Of a DNA stretch of 31,168 nucleotides, positions 649 through 24,735 are shown in pieces (within the stretch, counting starts at the first letter, position 1; every line of letters starts with the position of its first letter). Below the pieces are notes generated by a model, which was given only the letters and a program-made list of their open reading frames with translations, ran no database searches and was not told the origin of the DNA. The position numbers and the translations under genes are program-made. This DNA comes from a virus: IMG/VR virus record IMGVR_UViG_3300008107_000588, positions 1 through 31,168 of that record; one strand, written 5' to 3'.

Positions 649-1317
649 ATGAAAGTTAATTTGATTAGTTATTCACAAATAGCACGAACATCAGGTGGTG
701 GCATTGAAAAAGATTTACAAGAGTTAGTCGCTTTCTGTGCAAGAGTATCAAATCCCAGTAACCAATCAAATAAAGAAACAAGTGAGAAGTTAATTCGTTA
801 TCTCATCAAAAACCAACACTGGTCACCTTTAGAGATGGTGAGTATGTGTTTAGAAATTGAAACCACAAGAGATATTGCTAGACAGATGCTTCGTCACCGT
901 TCTTTTTCTTTTCAGGAATTTTCACAGCGTTATGCTAATCCTGTAGAAGATTTGGATTTTGTGTATCGTGAAGCTAGATTACAAGATACAAAGAATCGAC
1001 AAAATTCTATTGAAACGAATGATGATTACTTGCAAGAAAGATGGGAATCAGAACAAGCATCAGTAATTCTAAGAGCAAAACAAGCGTATGAGTGGGCTAT
1101 AGAAAATGGTCTTGCAAAAGAACAAGCCCGTGTAGTTTTGCCAGAAGGTCTAACAGTATCACGTTTGTATATGAATGGAACCTTGCGTAGTTGGATACAC
1201 TACATACAGTTACGTTCAGCAAACGGCACACAAAAAGAGCACATGCTCATCGCACGTAAATGTGCAGAAGTAGTTGCCAAAGTATTTCCGATGGCAAAAG
1301 AATTCACAGAAAATTAA
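649..1317 (+). CDS. thyX: Flavin-dependent thymidylate synthase ThyX
   Basis: ThyX makes dTMP from dUMP using methylene-tetrahydrofolate and FAD/NADPH. The 222-residue length is normal for the family. The ThyX signature RHRx7S is present at residues 82-92 (RHRSFSFQEFS, then QRY). Near the C-terminus there is an Arg/Asn-rich substrate region (LRSWIHYIQLRSANGTQKEH). The start is the first ATG after the primase stop, with a weak purine-rich stretch (AAGAG) before it. The gene lies between primase and nrdA, the usual place for a phage dNTP-supply enzyme. Nothing looks truncated. Confidence 0.95.
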   Translation: MKVNLISYSQIARTSGGGIEKDLQELVAFCARVSNPSNQSNKETSEKLIRYLIKNQHWSPLEMVSMCLEIETTRDIARQMLRHRSFSFQEFSQRYANPVEDLDFVYREARLQDTKNRQNSIETNDDYLQERWESEQASVILRAKQAYEWAIENGLAKEQARVVLPEGLTVSRLYMNGTLRSWIHYIQLRSANGTQKEHMLIARKCAEVVAKVFPMAKEFTEN

Positions 1318-1340
1318 TAACAATAAAATTGGAGCAGCGA

Positions 1341-2483
1341 ATGGAAGATATCATCAATGGTATTAAGGTAGACTATTCTCAAGATAGTTTGTTTGATGAG
1401 TTGGGTGTAAAAAGATTAAAAGAATCTTACATGAAAGAGGAAGAAAACTCTCCACAAGAAAGGTTTGCATATGTTTCAAAAGCTTTTAGTTCAAATGAAG
1501 AACATGCACAAAGACTTTATAATTATAGTAGCAAGCATTGGCTTAGTTATTCTACTCCCATTCTTAGCTTTGGCCGTAGTAAGCGTGGCCTTCCTATCTC
1601 TTGTTTCTTACCTTATTTGGATGATAGTGCTGAGGGCTTGGTCGATACGTTATCGGAAGTCAACTGGCTTTCAATGTTAGGAGGAGGAGTTGGAATTGGT
1701 CTTGGTATTCGTTCTGCTGATGATAAGTCTGTTGGCATTATGCCTCACTTGCGTACCTATGACGCTTCTTCTTTGGCGTATAGGCAAGGTAGGACCCGCC
1801 GCGGTTCTTACGCTGCTTATCTTGATATTAGTCATCCAGATATTCTTATTTTCTTAGAGATGCGTAAACCAACGGGTGATCAAAACATGCGTTGTTTGAA
1901 TTTACATCACGGAATTAACATTACAGATGACTTCATGCATTTAATTGAAAAGTGTATGTTAGACCATGATGCAGATGATACATGGGAACTAAAAGATCCA
2001 CATAGTGGTGAAGTACGTGACAAAGTTTCTGCGAGAGAATTGTGGCAACGTGTACTTGAAATGCGTATGATGACGGGTGAACCATATTTGCATTTTATTG
2101 ATACAAGTAATCGTGCAATGCCAGAATTTCAAAAGAAATTAGGTCTATCAATTAAACAAAGTAATCTATGCAGCGAAATTATTTTACCAACCGACAAAGA
2201 AAGAACTGCTGTTTGCTGTCTTTCGTCATTGAATTTGGAGTATTTTGATGAGTGGAAAAATGATAAACTTTTTTTACGGGACACGGCTGAAATGCTGGAT
2301 AATGTACTTCAGTACTTTATTAGCAATGCTCCTGATCACATTAGCCGAGCCAGGTACTCTGCTATCCAAGAGCGCAGCATTGGTGTGGGGGCTCTTGGTT
2401 TTCACGCTTATCTACAGAGAAATGGCATACCGTTTGAGAGGCACCGGACTACGTTTCAGTCATCTTATGGCCATTGCTCCTAA
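1341..2483 (+). CDS. nrdA: Ribonucleotide reductase class I large subunit, N-terminal part (frame broken)
   Basis: This is the catalytic alpha subunit, reducing NDPs to dNDPs. ATG 1341 is chosen because GGAG lies 8 nt upstream; an in-frame extension to 1260 would run into thyX. There is no ATP-cone domain at the N-terminus, so the protein starts directly at the ten-stranded barrel. Catalytic residues are visible: Cys88 (PISCFLPYL), the Asn275/Cys277/Glu279 triad (SNLCSEI) and the partner Cys at 292-293 (AVCCLSSLN). The frame matches the family up to NGIPFE at residue 366, then reads 14 unrelated residues and stops at 2483. The family continues in another frame (next entry). About 35-45 residues expected between the two halves are absent, pointing to an out-of-frame deletion or an assembly error rather than a clean split. 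Confidence 0.88.
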   Translation: MEDIINGIKVDYSQDSLFDELGVKRLKESYMKEEENSPQERFAYVSKAFSSNEEHAQRLYNYSSKHWLSYSTPILSFGRSKRGLPISCFLPYLDDSAEGLVDTLSEVNWLSMLGGGVGIGLGIRSADDKSVGIMPHLRTYDASSLAYRQGRTRRGSYAAYLDISHPDILIFLEMRKPTGDQNMRCLNLHHGINITDDFMHLIEKCMLDHDADDTWELKDPHSGEVRDKVSARELWQRVLEMRMMTGEPYLHFIDTSNRAMPEFQKKLGLSIKQSNLCSEIILPTDKERTAVCCLSSLNLEYFDEWKNDKLFLRDTAEMLDNVLQYFISNAPDHISRARYSAIQERSIGVGALGFHAYLQRNGIPFERHRTTFQSSYGHCS

Positions 2484-3027
2484 TGCTTCTAGCTCTATTA
2501 TCATGGGCAATACTAGCCCTTCTGTTGAGCCTTATCGTGCCAATGCCTATAGACAAGATACTCTTTCTGGAGCCTACTTAAATAAAAATAAGTATTTGGA
2601 TAAGTTAATCAAGGAGAAATGTGATGCCGACAGCAAATTGGATTATCAAGAAATCTGGTCATCTATCATTGCAAACGATGGTTCCGTCCAACACTTGGAT
2701 TTCTTGGATGAATGGACCAAAGATGTCTACAAAACTAGTATGGAAATTGACCAAAGATGGATTGTGGACCACGCAGCTAACAGACAAAATTACATTGACC
2801 AGGCGCAATCCATTAACCTCTTTTTTAGACCTGATGTAAATGTAAAGTATCTACATGCTGTACACTTTCAGGCTTGGAAACAAGGACTCAAAACACTTTA
2901 TTACTGCCGTAGTGAGAAATTGGCTAAAGCAGATAAAGTGTCAAAGAGAATCGAAAGAAAAGTGATCGAAGAAATTGATTTGAAGGCTTTAGCAACAGAA
3001 GATGTTTGTTTAGCTTGCGAAGGATGA
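2422..3027 (+). CDS. nrdA: Ribonucleotide reductase class I large subunit, C-terminal part (frame broken)
   Basis: This carries the rest of NrdA, shifted one base relative to the upstream half. Family-like sequence resumes at GTGLRFSHLMAIAPN and includes the substrate-binding loop AIAPNASSS, NTSPSVEPYRANAY, the Tyr-Tyr radical-transfer pair (TLYYCRSEK) and the C-terminal redox pair CLACEG used by thioredoxin. ATG 2422 is the nearest possible restart in this frame, preceded only by weak AGAGA, and overlaps the upstream half by 62 nt. Residues 1-6 from this start are out-of-frame readings of the upstream coding sequence. Either this is translated separately, giving a two-piece enzyme lacking a short internal segment, or the gene is dead here. 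Thioredoxin and nrdB downstream look intact. Confidence 0.8.
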   Translation: MAYRLRGTGLRFSHLMAIAPNASSSIIMGNTSPSVEPYRANAYRQDTLSGAYLNKNKYLDKLIKEKCDADSKLDYQEIWSSIIANDGSVQHLDFLDEWTKDVYKTSMEIDQRWIVDHAANRQNYIDQAQSINLFFRPDVNVKYLHAVHFQAWKQGLKTLYYCRSEKLAKADKVSKRIERKVIEEIDLKALATEDVCLACEG

Positions 3028-3037
3028 TTGATATAAA

Positions 3038-3676
3038 GTGTCAACAATTGCATTATTTGTGCAACACCCGAAATGTTCGGTTCAATCGTGCAATGGTATA
3101 ATCAAAGCACTAGGACCGAACTATACATATAAATTATTTACTAAACATGAAATCGAAAACGACTTTTTTGATAATGTGGATCTCTTGTGTTTTCCTGGTG
3201 GTGTTGGCGACAGTGATGCTTTCGATACATATTTTAGGCATCACGGGAGTTTTATCCTTGACTACATCAAATCTGGTGGCAGATATCTTGGGATATGTAT
3301 GGGTGCCTATTGGGCTGATAAACATTATTTTAATATACTGTACGGAGTTGAATCAAAACAATATATTAAAAGACCAAACACCTGTACCAGACGATCATAC
3401 AGTAAAGCAATTGAATGTAACTGGAACGGCACAGATGATAGATTCTTCTTTTACGATGCACCTACATTTATCGGAGAAGAATCGAATTATGAAGTTGTAG
3501 CGAGATATAAAAATGGAGATCCAGCCGCAATTATACAAGGTCGTATAGGTTTGATTGGACCCCATCTCGAAGCAGAAGAATATTGGTATGATAAACCTTA
3601 TTTGCATCGTCACTGGAATAATGGTAAACATCATACATTATTAAAACAATTTGTTGACAGATTGATGGAGAAGTAG
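3038..3676 (+). CDS. Class I glutamine amidotransferase-like protein (BPL_N-type)
   Basis: The 212-residue protein has the flavodoxin-like amidotransferase fold signature: LLCFPGGVGDSDAF at about residues 49-62 and GGRYLGICMGAYWA at 80-93, where Cys87 sits in the nucleophile elbow (GICMGAY). This resembles the N-terminal domain of eukaryotic biotin-protein ligase (BPL_N family) more than true glutaminases, and I see no clear catalytic His-Glu pair, so the substrate is unknown. It starts at GTG 3038, the first start after an in-frame stop at 3029, with AGGA about 13 nt upstream. Its position between nrdA and thioredoxin/nrdB suggests co-expression with nucleotide metabolism, but a role there is only inference. 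Confidence 0.72.
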   Translation: MSTIALFVQHPKCSVQSCNGIIKALGPNYTYKLFTKHEIENDFFDNVDLLCFPGGVGDSDAFDTYFRHHGSFILDYIKSGGRYLGICMGAYWADKHYFNILYGVESKQYIKRPNTCTRRSYSKAIECNWNGTDDRFFFYDAPTFIGEESNYEVVARYKNGDPAAIIQGRIGLIGPHLEAEEYWYDKPYLHRHWNNGKHHTLLKQFVDRLMEK

Positions 3677-6039: not shown

Positions 6040-6069
6040 ATGACAATCCGATGACGGTTTTGTTACAAT
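6040..6069 (+). promoter_or_regulatory. Promoter of pstS with Pho-box-like phased repeats
   Basis: Three short repeats are spaced exactly 11 nt: TGACA (6041), TGACG (6052) and TTACA (6063). Eleven-base phasing is the spacing of PhoB-binding direct repeats, and ATGACA...ATGAC resembles the reverse complement of the enterobacterial Pho box. The same bases also read as a sigma70 promoter, ATGACA (6040-6045), an 18-nt spacer, and TACAAT (6064-6069), leaving a leader of about 65 nt. The orientation of the Pho-like half-sites is opposite to the classical one, so PhoB control is an inference supported mainly by the phosphate genes downstream. Confidence 0.5.
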
Positions 6070-6107
6070 CCCGTTTAAGGATCATGATTTCATAGATAAG
6101 TGTGATA

Positions 6108-6123
6108 TTGTGCAAAGGCACAA
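6108..6123 (+). promoter_or_regulatory. Hairpin in the pstS leader
   Basis: TTGTGC and GCACAA form a perfect 6-bp stem around the loop AAAG, ending 7 nt before the AGGAG ribosome-binding site of pstS. There is no U-run, so it is not a terminator. It could stabilise the mRNA or affect ribosome access. Its function is not shown by the sequence. Confidence 0.45.
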
Positions 6124-6140
6124 TTCTTATAGGAGAAATC

Positions 6141-7163
6141 ATGAGAAAGTTACTTTTATCTTTATTGTTATTTACAGGAGTCGCATCCGCAGCAGAATTA
6201 ACTGGCGCTGGTGCGACTTTTCCATTTCCAATCTATGCTAAGTGGGCAGAAGCATATAAAGCATCCACTGGCATTGGTCTGAATTATCAATCAATCGGTT
6301 CTGGTGGTGGTATCAAACAAATCAAAGCAAAAACAGTTGACTTTGGTGCAAGTGATATGCCATTGAAGCCTGAAGAATTAGACAAAGAAGGTCTAGTGCA
6401 ATTTCCAGCAGTAATTGGCGGTGTAGTACCAGTATTCAATCTTGACGGTGTAGCAGCAGGTCAATTAAAATTAACACCAGAAGTTATTGCAAACATTCAT
6501 CTTGGTAAAATCACAAAGTGGAACGATAAAGCAATTGTTGATTTGAATCCTGGCGTCAATCTACCAGCATTAGCAATCACAGTTGTTCATCGTGCAGATG
6601 GTTCAGGCACTACATTTATTTGGACAAACTTTTTAGGTAAAGCAAACGCTGATTTTGCAAAAACTGTTGGCGAAGGCACAGCAGTAAAATGGCCAGTTGG
6701 TGTAGGTGGTAAAGGTAATGAAGGTGTTGCTGTTCAAGTACAAAGAATCAAAGGTGCATTTGGCTATGTAGAATATGCATATGCAAAAAGAAATAAAATT
6801 GCACACGCACAATTAAAAAATCGTGATGGTGTTTTTGTACAACCAAGTGACGATTCATTCAAAGCCGCAGCAGCAAACGCAGATTGGGCTAATGCACCAG
6901 GAATGTATTTGTTGCTCACATGGCAAACAGGTAAAGAAGCATGGCCAGCAACAGGCGCAAGTTTCATTCTCATGCACAAACAACAAGCAGATAGTTTGAC
7001 AGGTCGTGCAGTTTTGAAATTCTTTGATTGGAGTTGGAAGAATGGTGCCAAGATGAGTGAAGAACTAGAATATGTTCATTTACCACAATCAGTTATTAAA
7101 TTAAATCAGGACAATTGGAAAAAAGACTTAAAAGGTCCTGACAACAACCCAATTTGGAAATAA
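6141..7163 (+). CDS. pstS: Phosphate ABC transporter periplasmic binding protein PstS
   Basis: PstS binds phosphate in the periplasm and delivers it to the host PstCAB transporter; no pstCAB genes are seen here. The start is ATG 6141 with AGGAG at 6131-6135. A signal peptide occupies about residues 1-17 (MRKLLLSLLLFTGVASA, then AEL). The mature protein follows E. coli PstS closely: LTGAGATFPFPIYAKW, YQSIGSGGGIKQI, VDFGASDMPL, HRADGSGTTFIWTNFL (the phosphate-binding loop), VKWPVGVGGKGN, GAFGYVEYAYA and VLKFFDWSWKNGAK. Full length (341 aa) with no gaps. With the porin 9 nt downstream it forms a two-gene operon closed by a terminator. PstS is a known phage auxiliary gene in marine T4-like phages. 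Confidence 0.95.
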   Translation: MRKLLLSLLLFTGVASAAELTGAGATFPFPIYAKWAEAYKASTGIGLNYQSIGSGGGIKQIKAKTVDFGASDMPLKPEELDKEGLVQFPAVIGGVVPVFNLDGVAAGQLKLTPEVIANIHLGKITKWNDKAIVDLNPGVNLPALAITVVHRADGSGTTFIWTNFLGKANADFAKTVGEGTAVKWPVGVGGKGNEGVAVQVQRIKGAFGYVEYAYAKRNKIAHAQLKNRDGVFVQPSDDSFKAAAANADWANAPGMYLLLTWQTGKEAWPATGASFILMHKQQADSLTGRAVLKFFDWSWKNGAKMSEELEYVHLPQSVIKLNQDNWKKDLKGPDNNPIWK

Positions 7164-7172
7164 GGATAAATT

Positions 7173-8579
7173 ATGAAACTATTTAAAAAATTATCTATCG
7201 TAGTTGCACTTGCAGCAGTAATTCCTGCATATGCTGATGAGTATAAAGATACATTGAATATTCTAAGAGAGAAGAATATAATCACTCAAAAAGAATATGA
7301 ATCAAAACTCAATGCATATGAAGAAAAAGAAGAAAACAAAAAGTTTGCAGAACAAAGAATCGACAAAGATGTTAGTGATTCGGTCAAATACAGACAAGCA
7401 AGAGCAAACGATGGTTCAGTCACAGAAAATGGAATCGGACTCAAAAGCAAAGATGGAAACAATACGGCACAGTTTACAGGTCGAATTCATATGGACTATC
7501 GCCAATACACACCAGATTATGGTGTCGGCCAAACCACGGATTCGTATCAAAACTTAGCCGAAGTTCGCCGTGCAAGATTTGGTGTTCGTGGACAATTTGC
7601 AAAAGACTTCAAATATCAATTGTTAGCAAACTTTGGTGCAAGTGATGGCTTTAGTTCTACATCATCAACAGCAGATGAGATGTGGGTAAACTATGCAGCA
7701 AATCCAGAAATGCAATTTCAATTTGGCTTATTCAAGATGCCATTTAGTCTTGAACAAATGACAAGTTCAAACAATCTAGATTTTATGGAACGTAGTTTGA
7801 TTGGTCAGAATGATACTGAATTTATTCCTGCAAAAGAAACTGGTTTCATGTTACATGGTGTGCCAAAACCTGGCCTTACATATGCTATAGCAGCAAGTAG
7901 AGGCAAATCCAATAAGAGCGCAGAGTTCGATGGACTTGATTATATTGGTCGTGTAACAACTAATATTGCTGAACTAACAGGCAGCAAAGCATACACTGCA
8001 CACTTGGGTGCAGCATACAGCACAGGTGAAATTAAAAGTGGCGTTGCACCAGCCAGTGGTAGAACAGAATCTCGTATGCAGTCTGGTTGGTTTACAGGTT
8101 CCGCATTGAGTGGTGCTACTACAAGAACACGCCAAGGATTAGAAGCAGCGTTTGCATATAACGGTTTCAAAGTTCAAGGCGAACAGTTCAATTTTAAATA
8201 TGATGCTGCAACAGGTAGTGACCAAGAAATCAAAGGGTACTATGTACAAGCAGTTTATAATTTAACTGGCGAATCACATGCATACAAAGATGGTGCGTTT
8301 GGTTGGATTAAACCAAATAATCCAATCGACAAAGGTGGTCGTGGTGCGTGGCAGGTTGGTGTACGTATGAGTGAGTTTGATGCAAGTGATGTATCCGTTG
8401 CAACAGGCAAGTCAAATCGTGCTACTGCTATGACATACGGTCTAACTTGGTTTTGCACTGACAATCTACGTTTCATGCTCAACTACGTAGATACAAAGTT
8501 TGATGCATTAGTTGGTAGTTCTGGTAGTCGTGTAAATGGTGAAAAAGCAATTATGTTTAGAAGTCAATTAAGTTTCTAA
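7173..8579 (+). CDS. Phosphate-selective porin, OprO/OprP family
   Basis: A 468-residue outer-membrane beta-barrel protein. The signal peptide is MKLFKKLSIVVALAAVIPAYA, cut before DEYK. It is followed by a charged helical stretch (about residues 22-75, rich in Glu/Lys) that may be a periplasmic coiled coil. The barrel begins near FTGRIHMDYRQY and includes EVRRARFGVRGQFAKDFKYQ, FGLFKMPFSLEQM and MERSLIGQ, hallmarks of the Porin_O_P family. It ends in Phe (FRSQLSF), the C-terminal aromatic recognised by BAM. The neighbour pstS supports phosphate, or possibly polyphosphate, as cargo; substrate specificity itself is not proved by the motifs. The ribosome-binding site is AAGGA. A phage-encoded uptake porin is uncommon. 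Confidence 0.85.
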   Translation: MKLFKKLSIVVALAAVIPAYADEYKDTLNILREKNIITQKEYESKLNAYEEKEENKKFAEQRIDKDVSDSVKYRQARANDGSVTENGIGLKSKDGNNTAQFTGRIHMDYRQYTPDYGVGQTTDSYQNLAEVRRARFGVRGQFAKDFKYQLLANFGASDGFSSTSSTADEMWVNYAANPEMQFQFGLFKMPFSLEQMTSSNNLDFMERSLIGQNDTEFIPAKETGFMLHGVPKPGLTYAIAASRGKSNKSAEFDGLDYIGRVTTNIAELTGSKAYTAHLGAAYSTGEIKSGVAPASGRTESRMQSGWFTGSALSGATTRTRQGLEAAFAYNGFKVQGEQFNFKYDAATGSDQEIKGYYVQAVYNLTGESHAYKDGAFGWIKPNNPIDKGGRGAWQVGVRMSEFDASDVSVATGKSNRATAMTYGLTWFCTDNLRFMLNYVDTKFDALVGSSGSRVNGEKAIMFRSQLSF

Positions 8580-8596
8580 AATTTTTTTGTTATATT

Positions 8597-8622
8597 AAAA
8601 GCCTCGTAAGAGGCTTTTTTTT
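8597..8622 (+). terminator. Rho-independent terminator after the porin gene
   Basis: A perfect stem AAAAGCCTC/GAGGCTTTT around the loop GTAA is followed by a run of T residues. It closes the pstS-porin operon 17 nt after the porin stop and isolates it from the iscA-like gene. Confidence 0.92.
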
Positions 8623-11870: not shown

Positions 11871-12374
11871 TTAGTTTAAAGAAGCAATAATAACATCAAT
11901 ATAATTTACACCTATTGTAGAATTTGGACCAAAAACATTACCACTAGCGGTAATTGTAATTGAGTGATTGTGCGCTCCTGAACTACCTACTGATGCGCCT
12001 ATCGGCCCACCGGCCGGTACGGCAGTAGTCATAACGGGTACAGCAGGAGTTATTGGAGATGTAGCATTTGTGGGTGTGGTAGCAGTTCCAATAGCAAATC
12101 TATTTGTTGATGGCGCAACAGCATGAAGGTGATATGGTAACTGAGCTCCAGTTAAGGTATGGTTACCTACTGTATAAGGAACAGCAACCGATGAAAAAAT
12201 ATATGATGTAGTATTAAAACCTGTTGTGAAATCGACAGTACCTCCAGAACTCAAAGACGATCCATTTACTACTCGAAGTGCGTGATTATTATAATTCACA
12301 GTTTCTTTCGTCCAACCAGTGGGTGCGGATGTTTGATGAAAAATTGTTGTTGTTCCAGAATCAAAAATAGCCAC
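11871..12374 (-). CDS. Short tail fibre/collar-like receptor-binding protein, copy 3
   Basis: The 167-residue protein is built like the receptor-binding end of T4 gp12: SAPTGWTKET near the N-terminus, then ALRVVNGSSLSSGG, and two His-x-His sites (LPYHLHAV and SGAHNHSIT). In gp12 such sites hold metal in a trimer. It ends GVNYIDVIIASLN, shared in form with the next two upstream genes (KYVDTIIAVRS, KYVDSILATRT). The three are clearly paralogues. Product: a trimeric tail tip or side protein contacting the host surface. Confidence 0.78.
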   Translation of the reverse strand: MAIFDSGTTTIFHQTSAPTGWTKETVNYNNHALRVVNGSSLSSGGTVDFTTGFNTTSYIFSSVAVPYTVGNHTLTGAQLPYHLHAVAPSTNRFAIGTATTPTNATSPITPAVPVMTTAVPAGGPIGASVGSSGAHNHSITITASGNVFGPNSTIGVNYIDVIIASLN

Positions 12375-12376
12375 GA

Positions 12377-12874
12377 TTAACTCCTAACCGCTATAATAGT
12401 GTCAACATATTTTATATTCAAATTTATTTCTGAATTAACTCCACTCTGATTAATTGAACCAGTAACGGCTACAGTTCCAATTGGATGAGTATGTGATCCT
12501 CCACCACCAGGGTTATTACTAAAAGTAACTGGTGCTCCCGCTGGGGTACGAGCTACGTTCGTATTACCTGCACCACCTCGTCTAGTTAACAATGCGGATG
12601 GGTGTGTTATGGTAGTGTGATTATGCGTTGTCATTGCCGCATCGTCTATCACAGTGGCGTTTACAGCAGAATAAGAAAGTCCAGGTGCCGGTACACCAAT
12701 GCTATTATAATTTTTAAAAACTGTAGAAAAAGACTCTCCTGTAGTTCTATTAATAACAGAACCGGTAGTTACTCTTAGTGCATAATTATCATATGTAGTA
12801 TCTTTTGTCCATCCCGTTGGTGGAGTGGTCATTTTCATTATTGTTCTTGATCCTGATTCTATAACTAATGCCAT
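12377..12874 (-). CDS. Short tail fibre/collar-like receptor-binding protein, copy 2
   Basis: A 165-residue paralogue of its two neighbours. It has TPPTGWTKDT, ALRVTTGSV, two His-x-His sites (TTHNHTTI and GSHTHPIG) and the shared end NIKYVDTIIAVRS. The centre between the His sites (RRGGAGNTNVARTPAGAP) differs strongly from the other copies, as expected if it forms the host-contact loop. It is separated by one or two bases from the flanking copies, so all three are made from one message. Confidence 0.78.
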   Translation of the reverse strand: MALVIESGSRTIMKMTTPPTGWTKDTTYDNYALRVTTGSVINRTTGESFSTVFKNYNSIGVPAPGLSYSAVNATVIDDAAMTTHNHTTITHPSALLTRRGGAGNTNVARTPAGAPVTFSNNPGGGGSHTHPIGTVAVTGSINQSGVNSEINLNIKYVDTIIAVRS

Positions 12875-12875
12875 A

Positions 12876-13436
12876 TTAAGTCCTTGTTGCTAAAATTGAA
12901 TCCACATATTTAATAGCTAAATTTACTGTGGTGAAGGTTACAGGACTTGTTGCTGGATTTAACGGATGATCATGAGCAGTTGCTGTAACTCCAGGATTAA
13001 CACCACCTGGATTTACCACACCAGGTGTAAAATTGTTAGATACTGTTCTGGCTATTGATGGTCCTGGTATTACAGGAGAAGTTGTGCTGGCAGCAACAGT
13101 TGCTGCAGCAGGATAAGGTCCGTGGTTGTGGGAGGGTATCATACTAGATGTAAGTGATGTTCCTCCTACAGTTCCAGTTACCGATAGACTACCTGTTAAA
13201 GATTTAGATGACATAACGGAAGAAAATCCTGATGATCCTCCACTTGATACTGATCCTGTAACACATCGTAAAGTATAATCGGTATCTGAAGTGTCTTTAA
13301 CCCATCCTGTTGGTGCGGATCCTTGTAAAACAAAGACCATAGTGGCACCTTGATAATTAGCTTGCTCTGGATCAGTTGCTACCGAACCAATTACAGAATT
13401 TAAAACGAATGTGTTTATCGAAGATAATCTAGGCAT
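12876..13436 (-). CDS. Short tail fibre/collar-like receptor-binding protein, copy 1
   Basis: A 186-residue paralogue with an N-terminal extension of about 30 residues (MPRLSSINTFVLNSVIGSVA) that the other two copies lack. This could anchor it to the long fibre encoded just upstream. It then has SAPTGWVKDT, TLRCVTGSVSSGGSSG, His-x-His sites (IPSHNHGPY and TAHDHPLNP) and the shared C-terminal form LAIKYVDSILATRT. The Pro/Gly-rich insert between the His sites is the longest of the three. Confidence 0.78.
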   Translation of the reverse strand: MPRLSSINTFVLNSVIGSVATDPEQANYQGATMVFVLQGSAPTGWVKDTSDTDYTLRCVTGSVSSGGSSGFSSVMSSKSLTGSLSVTGTVGGTSLTSSMIPSHNHGPYPAAATVAASTTSPVIPGPSIARTVSNNFTPGVVNPGGVNPGVTATAHDHPLNPATSPVTFTTVNLAIKYVDSILATRT

Positions 13437-13438
13437 AT

Positions 13439-16400
13439 TTAACCAAATGTAATCTCAGAACCAAATACAGACCATGCAGATCCTATTCTTAATAAATTAA
13501 ATGAATAAAATTCAGTTTTGTTTGCTGTTGGTGTGGGTGCTGCACCGCCAGCCCAATTAATTGTTTGTGCTGCGCCATCTATTTGTACGGCATTTGGTAT
13601 ATATCCTGTTGCACCTTGTACTATAACAATCGTAACTGTAATAGATCGACTTGTTGTGGTTGGTACATTTGTAAAATTCGCAGTAAAGTTTGCTGCAGCA
13701 CTTGTGTGATAAAAAACAGAACCATCAGTTAAGTTATGAGTTACTGTTCCTGTAGCACCAGTTAATGTACTTAAAACTTCTGTTACTTCTTGTAAAGTGG
13801 TGAATCCTGTTACTGTTAAATCACCAGAAATTGTACCACCAGCTGTAGCTAGTCGAGTGTTTGCAGAAGCAAAAGCACCATTAGCATACAAACTCGCTGA
13901 TGTTACAGTGTTAGCGGTAGTGAATGATGAATTAGCATATGATCCAGCTGTTACAGCTTTACTATCTGCGGTATTTGCTACACCAAATGCCGAATTAGCA
14001 TATGATCCAGATGTTACTGCTTTACTGTCGGCAGTATTAGCTGAACCAAATGCCGAGTTAGCATAGTTACCAGCTGTTACAGCCTTACCATCAGCGGTAG
14101 ATGCATTTGTTGTAGCAGTATTAGCTTGACCATAAGCTGAATTAGCATATGATCCAGCACTTGTGGCCTTTTGATCAGCAGTAGTAGCATTGGTAGTTGC
14201 TGTATTAGCTTGAGTATAAGCTGAATTAGCATAGTTACCAGCTGTTACTGCTTTACTGTCAGCAGTAGCAGCATCGGTAGTTGCTGTATTTGCTTGCGTG
14301 TAAGCTGAATTAGCATATGATCCAGATGTTACTGCTTTACTGTCTGACGTATTAGCAACACTAAATGCAGAGTTAGCATAGTTACCAGCATCAACAGCTT
14401 TAGAATCAGCTGTAGATGCATTTGTTGTAGCAGTATTCGCAGCAGCAAAAGCACTATTAGCATAGTTACCAGCTGTTACTGCTTTACCATCAGCTGTAGC
14501 AGCATTAGTAGTTGCGGTATTAGCTTGAGTATAAGCTCCATTAGCATAAGATCCTGCTGTTACAGCTTTACCATCAGCAGTTGCAGCATTAGTCGTAGCA
14601 GTATTAGCTTGACCATAAGCACTATTAGCATAGTTACCAGCTGTTACAGCTTTACCATCAGCTGTAGATGCATTTGTTGTAGCAGTATTAGCTTGAGTAT
14701 AGGATGAGTTAGCGTAATCACCTGCCGTTAAAGCTTTAGAGTCAGCAGTAGTAGCATTGGTAGTTGCTGTATTAGCTTGACCATAAGCTGAATTAGCATA
14801 GTTACCTGCTGTTACTGCTTTACTATCTGAGGTATTAGCTAAAGCAAAGGCAGCATTAGCATATGATCCAGCTGTTACAGCTTTACCATCAGCTGTAGCA
14901 GCATTAGTTGTGGCTGTGTTTGCTTGACTATAAGATGAATTGGCATAACTAGATGCAGCATTAGCAGTGTCTCTAGCATATTGGTCTGAACTACTGGCGC
15001 CTGTATTAGCGGCTGCAAATGCCGCATTGGCGTATGTTCCAGCCGTTACAGCTTTTTGGTCTGCTGTATTAGCTGCAGCAAAAGCGCCATTTGCATATGA
15101 ACTAGAACTTACAGCTGTTTGACTAGTAGTGTTAGCTGTATCATATAAAACTTTAATTACATTTGCGGAAGTTAAATTTGCAAATGTCAGATTACCTGAA
15201 CCATCGGTTCTAATATAATCATCATTTGAACCACCTGTAATATGAAGGTTTGCAATTGGTCCCAATAAAACACTCTTTGCGATACTTGAATCTACATTAG
15301 AACGAATGTTAATCGTATTGCTTGAACCAATGATACGCATTTGTTCATTTTCTTCATTCATGCCACCAGCAGTAAATATGACATCATTTTCTAAAAGTGT
15401 ACCAATTACAAGGCCACCACCGCCCGTGACTGTATTGCCAGACACATACAAGTAACCATCATTTGGACCAACTAACGTAAATTCAGGATCGGCATGCAGA
15501 CTACTAGCAATACCCATGTCAATATAAGTATCATTTTCAGTACCGTTATCGGCCGTAGCAACATAATCAGATGATGCGTTATTTCCAGGATTAATGTTTT
15601 GAATGTTTATTTGAGAGTAATTATCCTCATTTGTTGATGCTTGAAATACTGTATGTGGCTGATAGTCATATCCAACAGGAATACCAGCATATAATGCGTT
15701 ATGCCCGTTCGCTTCACCAAAAAATTGACCACTATTACCAGTGACAGTTACAGAAGTAACATTTCCTGTAAAACTAACATTTCCTAAGACACTAAGATCA
15801 TAGAGGATAGTAACGTTACCAGAGATTGTGCCGCCCGATGAACTAAATTTGGTGTTGGCATCAGCAAATGCAGCGTTTGCGTAAATTGCTGTTGTGTTTG
15901 CTGCACCAAAAGCTGAGTTAGCATAACTACCAGCACTCACTGCTTTACTGTCAGCAGTATTCGCTGTATTAAAAGAAGAATTGGCATAACTTGATGCCGC
16001 ATTAGCAGTATCTCTAGCTAAAGTATCTGGCACTCCTGTATTTGCGGCCGCAAATGCTGCATTAGCATAAAGACCAGAACTATTAGCAGTATAAAATCCT
16101 GAATTGGCATAACTAGATGCAGCGTTTGCAGTATCTCTAGCCCAAGAATCGGTAATACCACTATTGGCCACAGCAAAAGCAGCATTAGCATAGTTACCAG
16201 CAGAAATAGAATTGACATCTGCTGTGTTGGCAATACCAAACGCTGCATTAGCATAACTGCCAGCTGTTACTGCTTTACCATCAGCTGTAGCAGCATTTGT
16301 AGTTGCAGTGTTTGCTTGAGTATAAGCAGAGTTAGCATATTGTCCTGCATCAACAGCTTTACCATCAGCTGTAGCAGCATTTGTAGTTGCTGTATTAGCC

Positions 16401-17674
16401 ACACTAAAGGACGAATTAGCATATGATCCTGCACTTACAGCTTTACTGTCGGCAGTTGCTGCATTTGTAGTTGCTGTATTTGCTTGTGTGTAAGCTGAGT
16501 TAGCATAACTACCAGCACTTACCGCTTTACTGTCAGATGTATTTGCTTGAGTATATGCTGAGTTAGCATAGTTACCAGATGTTACTGCTTTACTATCTGC
16601 GGTATTTGCTTGAGTGTATGCTGAGTTAGCATAACCACCAACATCAATAATTTTAGAATCTACTGTGTTAGCAGCACCATAAGCACTGTTAGCATAAACT
16701 CCGGATGATACTGCTTTGCTGTCGGCAGTCGCAGCATTTGTAGTTGCAGTGTTCGCAACACCAAATGCCGAGTTGGCATAGTTACCAGCTGTTACTGCTT
16801 TAGAATCAACAGTGTTGGCCTCACTGAAGGCAGCGTTGGCATAAATGCCAGCTGTTACAGCCTTACCATCAGCGGTAGATGCATTAGTGATTGCGGTATT
16901 AGATTGACCATAGGCTGAGTTAGCGTATTCTCCAGCACTTGTGGCCTTTTGATCAGCTGTAGTTGAATTTGTTGTTGCTGTATTAGCTTGAGTATATGCT
17001 GAATTGGCATAAGATGAACCACTATTAGCGGCACCAAATGCTGAATTAGAATATGATGCAGTACTTACAGCTTTATCATCAGCTGTAGCAGCATTGGTTA
17101 CGGCCGTATTGGCTTGACCAAAGGCAGTATTAGCATATTCTCCAGCACTTACTGCTTTACTATCGGCTGTTGCAGCATTAATAGTTGCGGTGTTTGCTTG
17201 ACTGTATGCTGTATTCGCATAGTTACCAGCTGTTACTGCTTTACCATCAGCTGTAGATGCATTTGTTGTGGCGGTATTAGCTTGACTATACGCAGAGTTA
17301 GCATATGATCCCGCATTTACAGCTTTAGTGTCTGCCACTCCAGCATTTGTAGTTGCATTGTTGGCCTGACTGTATGCTGAGTTTGCATAACTACCTGCTA
17401 TAACAGAAGTATTGGCTTTATTGAAGGCCGAATTCGCTTCGTTAAATGCACTATTAGCATAAAAAGCGGCACTATTCGCTGTATCTCTAGCGTAACTATC
17501 TATGCTACCCGATGATGCTGTATTCGCCGCAGAAAATGCCTGATTGGCGTAAGATGCTGCGGAGTTAGCCGCAGCAAAAGCAGAAGATATGTTTGCTGCT
17601 ACTTCTGTACTTAAATCGGACTGTTGAATTGATCCTGGTTCAATTAATCCGCCTGTTAGTTGTGTTAATGGCAT
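13439..17674 (-). CDS. Giant repetitive tail fibre protein (1411 aa)
   Basis: The product is a long fibre. Residues 1-40 form the attachment end (MPLTQLTGGLIEPGSIQQSD). Two arrays of Ala/Asn/Thr-rich repeats follow, each repeat holding a YANSAYTQANTA-like block and usually TADGKAVTAG. I count about 24 YAN units before and 17 after a central beta-rich island (about residues 605-840, with GTISGNVTILYDL, ATADNGTENDTYIDMG and HITGGSNDDYIRTDG). YAN-to-YAN spacing is mostly 21 or 28 residues, multiples of seven, which suggests a trimeric coiled-coil shaft. The C-terminal head (about residues 1270-1411) starts ATAGGTISGDLTVTG, contains ATGTVTHNLTDGSVFYHTS and ends WSVFGSEITFG. No signal peptide or membrane segment. 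Confidence 0.85.
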   Translation of the reverse strand: MPLTQLTGGLIEPGSIQQSDLSTEVAANISSAFAAANSAASYANQAFSAANTASSGSIDSYARDTANSAAFYANSAFNEANSAFNKANTSVIAGSYANSAYSQANNATTNAGVADTKAVNAGSYANSAYSQANTATTNASTADGKAVTAGNYANTAYSQANTATINAATADSKAVSAGEYANTAFGQANTAVTNAATADDKAVSTASYSNSAFGAANSGSSYANSAYTQANTATTNSTTADQKATSAGEYANSAYGQSNTAITNASTADGKAVTAGIYANAAFSEANTVDSKAVTAGNYANSAFGVANTATTNAATADSKAVSSGVYANSAYGAANTVDSKIIDVGGYANSAYTQANTADSKAVTSGNYANSAYTQANTSDSKAVSAGSYANSAYTQANTATTNAATADSKAVSAGSYANSSFSVANTATTNAATADGKAVDAGQYANSAYTQANTATTNAATADGKAVTAGSYANAAFGIANTADVNSISAGNYANAAFAVANSGITDSWARDTANAASSYANSGFYTANSSGLYANAAFAAANTGVPDTLARDTANAASSYANSSFNTANTADSKAVSAGSYANSAFGAANTTAIYANAAFADANTKFSSSGGTISGNVTILYDLSVLGNVSFTGNVTSVTVTGNSGQFFGEANGHNALYAGIPVGYDYQPHTVFQASTNEDNYSQINIQNINPGNNASSDYVATADNGTENDTYIDMGIASSLHADPEFTLVGPNDGYLYVSGNTVTGGGGLVIGTLLENDVIFTAGGMNEENEQMRIIGSSNTINIRSNVDSSIAKSVLLGPIANLHITGGSNDDYIRTDGSGNLTFANLTSANVIKVLYDTANTTSQTAVSSSSYANGAFAAANTADQKAVTAGTYANAAFAAANTGASSSDQYARDTANAASSYANSSYSQANTATTNAATADGKAVTAGSYANAAFALANTSDSKAVTAGNYANSAYGQANTATTNATTADSKALTAGDYANSSYTQANTATTNASTADGKAVTAGNYANSAYGQANTATTNAATADGKAVTAGSYANGAYTQANTATTNAATADGKAVTAGNYANSAFAAANTATTNASTADSKAVDAGNYANSAFSVANTSDSKAVTSGSYANSAYTQANTATTDAATADSKAVTAGNYANSAYTQANTATTNATTADQKATSAGSYANSAYGQANTATTNASTADGKAVTAGNYANSAFGSANTADSKAVTSGSYANSAFGVANTADSKAVTAGSYANSSFTTANTVTSASLYANGAFASANTRLATAGGTISGDLTVTGFTTLQEVTEVLSTLTGATGTVTHNLTDGSVFYHTSAAANFTANFTNVPTTTSRSITVTIVIVQGATGYIPNAVQIDGAAQTINWAGGAAPTPTANKTEFYSFNLLRIGSAWSVFGSEITFG
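13850..15110 (-). repeat. Coding minisatellite array 2 in the fibre gene
   Basis: About 17 further copies of the same 63/84-nt unit lie between the central beta-rich island and the C-terminal head of the fibre. Several 84-nt units here are close to identical to units of array 1, which makes unequal recombination within and between the arrays likely. Confidence 0.85.
15850..17560 (-). repeat. Coding minisatellite array 1 in the fibre gene
   Basis: About 24 imperfect direct repeats, mainly 63 or 84 nt long, encode the YAN...ANT...TADxKAV heptad units. Copies differ mostly at third positions and at a few codons, so the array is old enough to drift yet keeps frame. A few junctions (around TANAASSYAN) are one residue off the multiple-of-seven rule. 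Confidence 0.85.
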
Positions 17675-22072: not shown

Positions 22073-22840
22073 ATGGCAAGAAAATCTTCTGTAGACCTGC
22101 AAATTGTTGAAAGTGAACATTCAACAAAAAACTCAAAAATAAAAACAGGAACACATAATTTGAGAATTAAAATAGATGATTTAAAAACATTTGACCCATT
22201 GACAGAAAATCAAAAAATATTTTTTGATGCATATAAAAGGCAAGATTATTTTATAGCACTGCATGGTGTAGCAGGAACAGGAAAAACATTTTGTGCATTA
22301 TATAAAGCCTTAGAAGAAGTTTTAGATAGAAATAATCCTTTTCAGAAAATCATTGTTGTTCGTTCGGCTGTACAGTCTAGAGAAATTGGCCATTTACCGG
22401 GTGATGTACATGAGAAGATGGAAATCTATCAGCAACCATATAGACAAATTTGTGAAACATTATTCGGACGCAGAGATGCATGGGATAGATTAGAAGAACA
22501 GGGGCATATTGAATTTATTTCCACCTCATTTATCCGGGGAATGTCCTTCGATGACGCAATCATTATCGTTGATGAATGTCAGAATTTATCATTCGAGGAA
22601 ATTGATACCGTTATGACCCGAGTTGGATATCGTTCAAAAATTATTTGGTGTGGTGATTATCGTCAAACTGATTTGAACAAAAAGAAAAATGATGTTTCTG
22701 GTATTTTGAAATTCTTTGACATTGCATACCATATGGCAGCATTTACAAGAGTTGAATTTACAGTTGAAGATATTGTGAGAAGTAGTTTAGTAAAAGATTA
22801 CATTATCGCAAAGTTGAAAGTAGAAGATTTGAATAACTAA
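22073..22840 (+). CDS. phoH: PhoH-like P-loop ATPase
   Basis: The 255-residue protein has Walker A GVAGTGKT (residues 65-72), Walker B IIIVDECQN (163-171), the PhoH hallmarks IVVRSAVQSREIGHLPG and DDAIIIVDECQNLS, and a C-terminal GDYRQTDL. PhoH proteins are RNA-helicase-like ATPases common in T4-like phages; their exact role in infection is unsettled. The name reflects Pho control in E. coli, but I see no Pho-like repeats here. GGGAG 5 nt before the ATG gives the start. Complete. Confidence 0.93.
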   Translation: MARKSSVDLQIVESEHSTKNSKIKTGTHNLRIKIDDLKTFDPLTENQKIFFDAYKRQDYFIALHGVAGTGKTFCALYKALEEVLDRNNPFQKIIVVRSAVQSREIGHLPGDVHEKMEIYQQPYRQICETLFGRRDAWDRLEEQGHIEFISTSFIRGMSFDDAIIIVDECQNLSFEEIDTVMTRVGYRSKIIWCGDYRQTDLNKKKNDVSGILKFFDIAYHMAAFTRVEFTVEDIVRSSLVKDYIIAKLKVEDLNN

Positions 22841-22854
22841 CACAGGAGTATATT

Positions 22855-23286
22855 ATGATTTATTTTGATGATGAAAGAGATTATAGTAAAATCGTTGAAG
22901 AATGGATTCGTGATTTCATTGCAACAATGGACGAGGGTGTGCTTACAGCAGGCAATGATTCGGGTGAGGCACCTTTTGGTGTAAAAATCATTTTCGATGG
23001 CTATGGGTATGATGAAGAAAATGATTTGGAAAATAATGATACAAACACATTGTCGTTTGCTGTATTCATTCACAAAAATTCATTGAATGAGGAATTTCCA
23101 CCACATGAACAAACGCCTTGGGCTTTGATTCATCGACCAAAAGAAGAAGTTTGCATTTGGGCTTGGTATGATGTCAATGCTGATTTAGTTGATATCATAC
23201 CATTTGAAGATAATAATTCTACAGAGTTGGATCCAAAATTTGTCAGCAATTTAATTCATGAAATTTATATGAGGGAGTTACAATGA
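22855..23286 (+). CDS. Acidic unknown protein (143 aa)
   Basis: The 143-residue protein is very acidic (DFIATMDEGVLTAGNDSGEA, YGYDEENDLENNDTN) and aromatic near PWALIHRP and CIWAWYDV. It has no signal peptide. AGGAG precedes the ATG. It begins a run of four overlapping genes (to 24735) that probably function together. Strong acidity could mean DNA mimicry or binding to basic proteins, but this is only suggestive. Confidence 0.68.
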   Translation: MIYFDDERDYSKIVEEWIRDFIATMDEGVLTAGNDSGEAPFGVKIIFDGYGYDEENDLENNDTNTLSFAVFIHKNSLNEEFPPHEQTPWALIHRPKEEVCIWAWYDVNADLVDIIPFEDNNSTELDPKFVSNLIHEIYMRELQ

Positions 23287-23786
23287 GTTTAGTACAATAT
23301 GCAGAAAGTGAATTAGACCGTATTGGTATGACCGATGATGATGACATGAATGGAGCAATGCGTAGACATTTGCTACACATGATACATGAATTTTCAGAAG
23401 AAGGACATTCTGGATTCTCTGCGAGTTATGCATTACAGTGTTTAGAAAAATTACTTCGTTTTAAACCACTATCACCATTAACAGGTGAAGATGATGAATG
23501 GACTGATGTTGCTGAAATCAGTGGAAAACCACACTATCAAAACAAAAGATGTGGTTCTGTATTCAAAGATGGTAAAGACGGTGAAGCATATGATATCGAT
23601 GGTAAAGTATTTTGGGAATGGTATAAAGATGATGATGGAAATGTATATAAATCACATTACACCGCTTTCGAAAGTCGTGTACCAGTAAAATTTCCTTATA
23701 TTGTGCCTGATGAGCCAATCTATGAGTGGCGTGTTTCATCGCATGATCCACAACAAGCCGAACAAAATGAAGAAGGTTTTGTGTAA
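23283..23786 (+). CDS. Conserved-type phage protein (167 aa), unknown
   Basis: The N-terminal part (SLVQYAESELDRIGM, HMIHEFSEEGHSGFSAS, LLRFKPLSPLTGEDDEW) matches a widely spread phage family with a GHSGxSA...LLxFKPLTPLTxxxDEW core. The C-terminal part is a WW-like repeat region (FKDGKDGEAYDIDGKVFWEW). It is translation-coupled to the previous gene (ATGA). The biochemical role is unknown. Confidence 0.78.
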   Translation: MSLVQYAESELDRIGMTDDDDMNGAMRRHLLHMIHEFSEEGHSGFSASYALQCLEKLLRFKPLSPLTGEDDEWTDVAEISGKPHYQNKRCGSVFKDGKDGEAYDIDGKVFWEWYKDDDGNVYKSHYTAFESRVPVKFPYIVPDEPIYEWRVSSHDPQQAEQNEEGFV

Positions 23787-24025
23787 TGAAATTTTGGACT
23801 ATCGTTTATCCCGATGAGACAGAATCAGGTCAAGAATACACACATTGGGAAACATTATCTGATCAAGATATTTTAGAGCAATACTGGTCTTACTGGTATG
23901 TTCGTATGATTGAAAATAATCAACCTATTGAGAAACTAACATCCGAACAATGTATTGAAGATTGGTGTGTCATACATTGGGCAGAGCGAAACTATTGGCG
24001 TGAGATGAAGGATTGCATAACATGA
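23786..24025 (+). CDS. Trp-rich small protein (79 aa)
   Basis: The 79-residue protein is strikingly rich in Trp and Tyr (MKFWTIVYPDE, ILEQYWSYWYVRMIE, CVIHWAERNYWREMK). It starts on the last base of the previous stop (TAATG) and ends overlapping the next gene (ATGA). No family is recognised, but the coupling on both sides and the clean frame make it a real gene. Confidence 0.7.
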   Translation: MKFWTIVYPDETESGQEYTHWETLSDQDILEQYWSYWYVRMIENNQPIEKLTSEQCIEDWCVIHWAERNYWREMKDCIT

Positions 24026-24735
24026 GAAACAATTTTTTTGAAATTACTTGGTCAGACTATAAATTTTGGCACATGTATTTGATATGGCCAACAGAGGGTG
24101 ATGAAAACAAATATTTAAAAATTTCATTTGGTTTCTGGAAATTCTTTGCAAGTATAGGATTGTGGCCAACAAAAGGTGTTGGAGATTTTACTTCAATTAT
24201 GGGACCAAAATATGGTTTCTCATATAGTGAAGGTGTATTTTTTATCTACAAAGGATTGGACAAATACACTGCAATTGATATGCCATGGCGTTGGCAAATT
24301 GTTCGCCATGACCTTTTATTGCCTGATGGTAGTGTATATCAAACCAATTTGTGGGATTATTCTGGCGAAAAAATTGGTGAACATTACCATTGGCATGAAA
24401 TGTTAAATGGTTGGAAGGATGAAAATCTAAAAAGAGGCCTTTTAGAAAAATGTGCTAGAACGGTAGAATTGGATCACTATACAAAAGATGGTCGCCGTCA
24501 ACAGGCAATAATCACATTAACGGGTGAAGAAAGAGAATGGCGTTGGTTGTGGTTTACATGGTTGCCATTATTCAATAAAGTTGAACGAGTTGTTTCTTGT
24601 GAATCAAATGTCGAATTGGGCAAGAAAGCAGGAACATGGAAAGGCGGCATGATGGGTTGGAGTTGCGATTGGGCAATAAATGAAAGTATGGAAATGGCAT
24701 TTAGAAGATGGTATGATAAGTGGGACGGCAATTAA
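24022..24735 (+). CDS. Unknown conserved-type phage protein (237 aa)
   Basis: The 237-residue protein contains PKYGFSYSEGVFFIYKG, DMPWRWQIVRHDLLLPDG, EEREWRWLWFTWLPLFNKV and ELGKKAGTWKGGMMGWSCDW. This combination of EExEWRWxWFxWLP and GxxKGSWKGGxxG-like blocks is familiar from hypothetical proteins of many phages, without assigned function. The start is ATG 24022 in the overlap with the previous stop; an extension of three residues to TTG 24013 is unlikely. No transmembrane segment despite the many Trp. Confidence 0.76.
   Translation: MRNNFFEITWSDYKFWHMYLIWPTEGDENKYLKISFGFWKFFASIGLWPTKGVGDFTSIMGPKYGFSYSEGVFFIYKGLDKYTAIDMPWRWQIVRHDLLLPDGSVYQTNLWDYSGEKIGEHYHWHEMLNGWKDENLKRGLLEKCARTVELDHYTKDGRRQQAIITLTGEEREWRWLWFTWLPLFNKVERVVSCESNVELGKKAGTWKGGMMGWSCDWAINESMEMAFRRWYDKWDGN

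Follow-up and report, generated by a model that had tools for sequence, protein, structure and literature searches.

Phage nutrient-uptake genes and the pstS-porin pair

Phosphate-uptake genes in phages are known mainly from cyanophages, whose pstS product acts in the periplasm. In one report (PMC3686209), cyanophage pstS is described from T4-like cyanophages such as P-SSM2. A viral arrangement with a porin has been described from oxygen-depleted ocean waters, where glnK-amtB is followed by ompL (PMC8115048). It is the nearest precedent that we found for the locus treated here, since in both a nutrient-transport gene has a host-derived porin gene directly 3' of it. It differs in serving ammonium, in encoding a membrane transporter instead of a binding protein, and in its association with Bacteroidetes; the report gives a terminator after amtB, a porin without an assigned substrate, and two viral contigs.

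The DNA analyzed here (the window, 31,168 bases) is the entire IMG/VR record IMGVR_UViG_3300008107_000588. It carries pstS, encoding a periplasmic phosphate-binding protein of 340 amino acids (6141–7163, + strand), and, 9 nucleotides (nt) after its stop and on the same strand, a gene for an outer-membrane porin of the OprO/OprP family (7173–8579, 468 amino acids). Compared with cyanophage pstS, the window's group is distinguished by this outer-membrane partner and by a likely Burkholderiales host. We consider it probable that phages captured the pair from a Burkholderiales host and use it as a phosphate-uptake module. Among the papers listed in searches of the open-access literature, a scope that leaves preprints and most subscription papers outside, none reports a pstS-porin pair, and what appears to be new is that phage phosphate uptake has been extended, on more than one occasion, to include the outer membrane.

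Conserved pairing of pstS and porin in large phages

Related-locus scans kept the best 80 of 109 (porin), 293 (pstS), 131, and 84 relatives. In IMG/VR, all of the best 80 porin relatives had pstS, some of these loci being cut by a contig end, and the porin and pstS scans together gave both genes in 145 of 147 loci, the window included. After repeats had been merged by contig name, a hand count found both genes in constant order in 105 of 107 IMG/VR contigs. Chance co-location was ruled out by these contigs together with the repeated pairing described below. In 113 of the 145 loci, the porin starts 12 nt after the last PstS codon (the stop codon and 9 nt more). Among the full-length sequences there are 53 distinct PstS proteins and 53 distinct porins. 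A further scan with eight mostly Methylophilaceae porins (A3) recovered both genes in 72 of 76 further loci, mostly on contigs found earlier; of the other four, three run into a contig end and one (L396) does not.

By tblastn against 50,697 phage records, the porin had no match at all, while PstS had 90, all less than 60% identical and 79 of them in phages named as cyanobacterial. The earlier note on this DNA had taken the pairing to be much less common than pstS alone; the pair is absent from the isolate-phage collection, yet it is widespread in IMG/VR. Among 32 larger records, 14 have a T4 capsid gene (gp23) scoring above threshold, including 11 of the 14 of 100 kb or more, which marks them as T4-like; the phages with the pair appear to be large and T4-like. 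The porin family PF07396 was present in 26 of 26 larger records with one match each; these records were picked for the pair, and the count is no independent support.

Both genes are under purifying selection, with a median ratio of nonsynonymous to synonymous substitution rates (dN/dS) of 0.10 for pstS (493 pairs) and 0.129 for the porin (184 pairs), using pairs with dS between 0.1 and 1. As host-derived phage genes under purifying selection, they can be classed as auxiliary metabolic genes. PstS and porin are 97% and 87% identical to the window's in L033, and 72% and 88% in L034, opposite trends that suggest recombination within the pair. Two Campylobacter phage records, MG065691.1 and MG065686.1, also have pstS, with 52% identity to that of the window; the former is flagged unverified and unannotated and may be phage or host DNA.

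Identity of the two proteins

The PstS protein matches Pfam PBP_like_2 (127.5 bits) and the PHROG phosphate transporter subunit family (215 bits), and it aligns with the solved PstS proteins 5wnn (2.7e-115, residues 11–328 of 340) and 1ixh (1.3e-109, residues 18–338), so that its sequence places it in the PstS family over most of its length. Nine residues (T26, F27, S54, D72, R151, D153, S155, G156, and T157) are invariant in 16 phage sequences and correspond by motif to T10, F11, S38, D56, R135, D137, S139, G140, and T141 of Escherichia coli PstS, its phosphate ligands.

The porin has PF07396 (Porin_O_P) as its sole Pfam match, at 171.8 bits against a cut-off of 20.9, and no PHROG family; among PDB sequences it matches OprO and OprP at E < 0.001 and nothing else. 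It has a signal-peptide-like start, a helical N-terminal part, a beta barrel, and a terminal Phe. An AlphaFold model built with 23 phage sequences (predicted local distance difference test, pLDDT, 65.2; predicted template modeling score, pTM, 0.61) has 16 strands of at least 8 residues, and its best fold matches are OprO (Z 31.6) and OprP (Z 31.1), followed by a chitoporin (24.3); Foldseek ranks OprP first. The model thus predicts an OprP-fold barrel. OprP and OprO of Pseudomonas aeruginosa share with the phage porin the Porin_O_P family, the best fold match, and 6 of 10 compared channel positions, whereas identity in the structural alignment is 25% and the helical N-terminal part of the phage porin (model residues 17–78) lies outside the match.

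The ten OprP channel positions were compared across 23 phage porins. R34, R59, R60, D94, and R133 are kept in all 23 and K74 in 22, while Y62 is replaced by Arg and Y114 by Lys, with a gain of positive charge. Further residues of the OprP arginine ladder fall in stretches whose alignment is not unique. The channel looks anion-attracting, with phosphate as its putative substrate. Family profiles, PDB matches, and the 9-nt gap bear out the earlier note's description of an adjacent unit of pstS and an OprO/OprP-type porin, and a placement among non-phosphate porins, which would have refuted the note, did not emerge: OprO and OprP are the closest solved proteins by sequence and predicted fold, and bacterial relatives of the porin lie beside ppx and phoX.

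Host origin of the genes

Scanning a genome collection returned 29 porin loci. Those nearest to the phage porin (47–54% identity) lie on seven contigs of metagenome-assembled genomes (MAGs) labeled Burkholderiaceae, Oxalobacteraceae, Burkholderiales, Polynucleobacter, or Noviherbaspirillum. Their genomes, G001–G007, all belong to one genus of 21 genomes, and they alone in that genus have porin matches at E < 1e-80. Bacterial PstS proteins were compared across the order of G006 (300 genomes) and the genomes reached through the porin. The best two PstS among the 300 genomes come from the same genus (74–75%, the next being 69%), as do the best two porins in the order-wide search, the genus being an uncultured one of the Burkholderiales.

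Trees were built with 22 of the 53 distinct porins and 24 of the 53 PstS of the window's group (lineage A). The 22 phage porins form one clade (support 100) joined at 99 to the Burkholderiales genus, and the 24 phage PstS form one clade (support 99) joined at 99 to the same genus. A tree, which the earlier note had proposed as a way of revealing the host, does group the porin with a single uncultured Burkholderiales genus. The genus itself is weakly supported as a single group (71 in the porin tree, 82 in the PstS tree), and it is not monophyletic in the PstS tree of the topology test on lineages A and C. On this phylogenetic evidence pstS and porin appear to have been captured from a host of this genus, and the phages with the pair probably infect uncultured Burkholderiales bacteria; that the habitat is fresh water is a guess from the MAG labels.

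The host genes lie in a phosphate/polyphosphate cluster. No bacterial porin is closer to the phage one than the porin encoded there, and its PstS is the closest in the order that was searched. The ppx/phoX neighborhood was compared in five of the seven closest contigs (L148, L149, L150, L152, and L153). In L149, L150, and L153, porin and ppx are oriented divergently and phoX comes next, and L148 starts just before the porin. In G002, porin, ppx, phoX, ppk, and pstS share a contig, with pstS 10.8 kb from the porin and ppk, ppx, and phoX between them, and in G004 the contig ends in a pstS fragment that is separated from the porin by 12.5 kb. In the host cluster the two genes are therefore separate, whereas in the phages they are adjacent. 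None of the 29 bacterial porin loci showed a pstS like the window's in the 6 kb retrieved around it, and the host genes stand about 11–12 kb apart, so that the adjacency looks like a phage arrangement.

Separate origins of the paired porins

Two further lineages came from the A3 porin scan. Lineage B comprises L330 and L331, the L330 record (IMGVR_UViG_3300031949_000001, 378,912 bases) having gp23 and terminase matches. Its PstS belongs to another subfamily, 24% identical to the window's and 58–67% to betaproteobacterial PstS, and its porin, which starts 2 nt after pstS, is 48% identical to a betaproteobacterial porin. Five bacterial loci (L154, L159, L161, L162, and L172) have PstS of the lineage B subfamily close to the porin, inside the 6 kb retrieved. 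The L330 record also has two gp23-like genes, and a Band-7 protein and a release-factor-like protein near the pair.

Lineage C comprises L401 and L402, with PstS 56–57% and porin 33–34% identical to the window's; its porin comes closest, at 55%, to another group of porins from the Burkholderiales host genus. Its records, of 54 and 104 kb, matched neither gp23 nor terminase, and are taken as phage because of their IMG/VR listing and a neighbor gene common with the window's phage. A glutamine-amidotransferase/BPL_N-like protein is encoded close to the pair both in lineage A (window 3038–3676) and in lineage C (L402:4380–5093), and was also seen by eye in L396 (348–989). Terminase PF03237 was matched in one of six records and gp23 in three of seven. 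Scans with the lineage B and C porins returned just the four contigs of these two lineages.

A single origin of all phage porins was rejected by the approximately unbiased (AU) test (p-AU 2.7e-47), as was one of lineages A and C without B (3.5e-34); for PstS, holding A and C together was borderline (p-AU 0.045). The tests used 8 lineage A porins and 9 lineage A PstS, and 11 bacterial porin rows, most of them long-branched or distant, were removed before the porin test. By these topologies, the pstS-paired phage porins have at least three separate origins.

Possible regulation by the host PhoB system

Upstream of the pair, at 6040–6068 on the − strand, the window has a Pho-box-like array of three 7-mers at 11-nt spacing (TTGTAAC-N4-CCGTCAT-N4-TTGTCAT). 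It scores p 0.002 against GC-matched random stretches with a matrix derived from 28 host sites, some of which are not significant individually, and matches the E. coli consensus at 12 of 14 positions (shuffle p 0.01). With the host-derived matrix, 13 of 21 non-redundant phage pstS upstream regions reach p ≤ 0.05 against GC-matched random stretches of phage loci, 8 of them on the + strand. With the E. coli consensus, the phage upstream regions average 9.46 compared with 8.30 when shuffled. At p ≤ 0.05, this consensus is matched by 14 of 28 non-redundant bacterial porin upstream regions, always on the strand of the gene, and by 3 of 5 host pstS upstream regions, in one case on the − strand. Upstream of lineage B stands CTGTCATACTACTGTCAC, matching the consensus at 13 of 14 positions (shuffle p 0.001), and upstream of the two lineage C members stand CTGTAACACTACTGTAAT and CTGTAACATTACTGTAAC (p 0.016 for one and 0.08 for the other); the L403 upstream region has no Pho box. 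A third, degenerate motif, present in 11 of 21 phage upstream regions and 21 of 2512 random stretches, was discarded as circular, having been derived from the same sequences.

The earlier note had also given the pair its own promoter. A sigma-70-like hexamer pair matching at 10 of 12 positions does lie at 6040–6069 on the + strand, but such sites number 9 in the scan versus 8.2 in shuffles, so that a promoter is suggested, with the host-derived Pho-box matrix as the better argument, and not established. The candidate phage Pho boxes fit the link of cyanophage pstS with host PhoBR made in one report (PMC10976474). The pair is most likely a phosphate-uptake module under PhoB, regulation and substrate both being inferred from sequence.

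Mechanism and alternative explanations

The ABC (ATP-binding cassette) permease family PF00528 was found in none of 18 phage records (the window and 17 others, which may be fragments) and in 14 of 14 control genomes; host PstCAB must therefore complete the route, and the term "self-contained" that the earlier note applied to the cassette was too strong. Under phosphate starvation, host PhoB would activate the phage promoter and drive the pair. The porin would enter the outer membrane and raise phosphate influx, and phage PstS would bind periplasmic phosphate and pass it to host PstCAB, the continued flow serving phage DNA synthesis. The pair suggests that these phages aid phosphate uptake by starved host cells during infection.

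Several observations weigh against reading the pair as a captured, PhoB-controlled phosphate module. The pstS gene stands without a porin in L114 and L147, and the porin stands without pstS in L396, the surroundings of both L114 and L396 being the nrdB-nuclease-SegE ones of the window; in L134 (1334–2624) the porin frame is broken and pstS intact, through gene decay or assembly error. The confidence of the porin model is moderate. In the channel, K121, the central lysine of OprP, is Gln in 23 of 23 phage porins, and R112 is Leu in 20 of 23. No ppx or phoX-like open reading frame (ORF) was seen by eye beside the porin in L152, one of the closest host contigs. The window's Pho-box-like array runs opposite to transcription and overlaps the sigma-70-like match, 5 of the 13 passing phage sites lie on the − strand and 8 of the 21 upstream regions fail, and the E. 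coli consensus is reached at p ≤ 0.05 by 5 of 28 phage upstream regions and by none of 6 upstream regions of the closest host-genus porins.

The porin may instead be a general anion channel or an OprO-like pyrophosphate/polyphosphate channel, with PstS capturing phosphate once it has entered the periplasm or been set free there. The altered OprP positions 62, 112, 114, and 121 speak for such a channel, as do host porins that adjoin ppx and phoX and, in G002, lie near ppk, and an OprO score slightly above that of OprP; the two scores are, however, practically tied, and Foldseek puts OprP first. We regard this explanation as possible, though clearly the less likely one. Porins are common phage receptors, and the phage porin could alter the host surface by receptor masking or superinfection exclusion, its adjacency to pstS being incidental, an idea with which the solitary porin of L396 would agree. 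It is improbable given that 105 of 107 contigs show the two genes adjacent, that pairing has recurred with distinct PstS proteins, and that host relatives adjoin phosphate genes. Host contamination or a chimeric contig, for which the host origin of both genes could be cited, has a negligible probability and was ruled out by the recurrence of the same arrangement across many contigs, by gp23 in 14 of 32 larger records, and by phage copies that form clades of their own; the GC content of the genes (0.39) is also near that of the window (0.37), compared with 0.47–0.62 in the seven closest host loci. The stretch is accordingly phage DNA, as the earlier note had assumed.

Other features of the window

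The ATG of pstS at 6141, which begins a signal-peptide-like sequence, is preceded by the Shine-Dalgarno-like TAGGAGAA (6130–6137, + strand), and the frame is already open from a GTG at 6102. The terminator that the earlier note placed 3' of the pair corresponds to a terminator-like stem-loop and T run (8597–8622, + strand), with a stem of 9 pairs, 4 of them G-C, at 8597–8618; terminator-like sites in the region number 3 versus 1.5 expected. On the 5' side of the pair are genes for a primase, thyX, nrdA, nrdB, and a methyltransferase, and on the 3' side those for an IscA-like protein, a nuclease, a SegE-like endonuclease, and tail fibers.

The large subunit of ribonucleotide reductase (1260–3027) is divided between two overlapping ORFs (profile positions 2–304, then 368–522), as would be expected from a break in the frame or a fault in the assembly. 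A phoH gene at 22073–22840, away from the pair, is connected with phosphate by name alone. At 23283–24735, matches to Tad3 (Thoeris inhibitor, PF25185, 145 bits) and Acb3 (inhibitor of CBASS, the cyclic-oligonucleotide-based antiphage signaling system; PF25187, 82 bits) are separated by 226 nt, with a small ORF inside the gap; the two are probable anti-defense genes. A tail-fiber-like protein of 1411 amino acids (13439–17674) has many short repeats of the SAYTQANTATTN kind, and three similar neighboring proteins with a PTGWTKD-like motif (11871–13436) are perhaps tail or fiber-tip proteins.

Implications for phage and host

A large set of uncultured T4-like phages would add an outer-membrane step to phosphate uptake as a tight two-gene unit, assembled more than once. 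There is about an even chance that Burkholderiales phages have repeatedly built a two-compartment phosphate importer of porin and PstS under host PhoB control, which would imply that the permeability of the outer membrane, in addition to capture in the periplasm, limits the phosphate available while starved cells are infected. The corresponding prediction is that, when Gram-negative cells are starved of phosphate, phage production can be held back by the outer membrane. The pair also gives a host lead, to one Burkholderiales genus, for the phages that carry it, and through it viruses may equip living cells with a surface pore for a nutrient.

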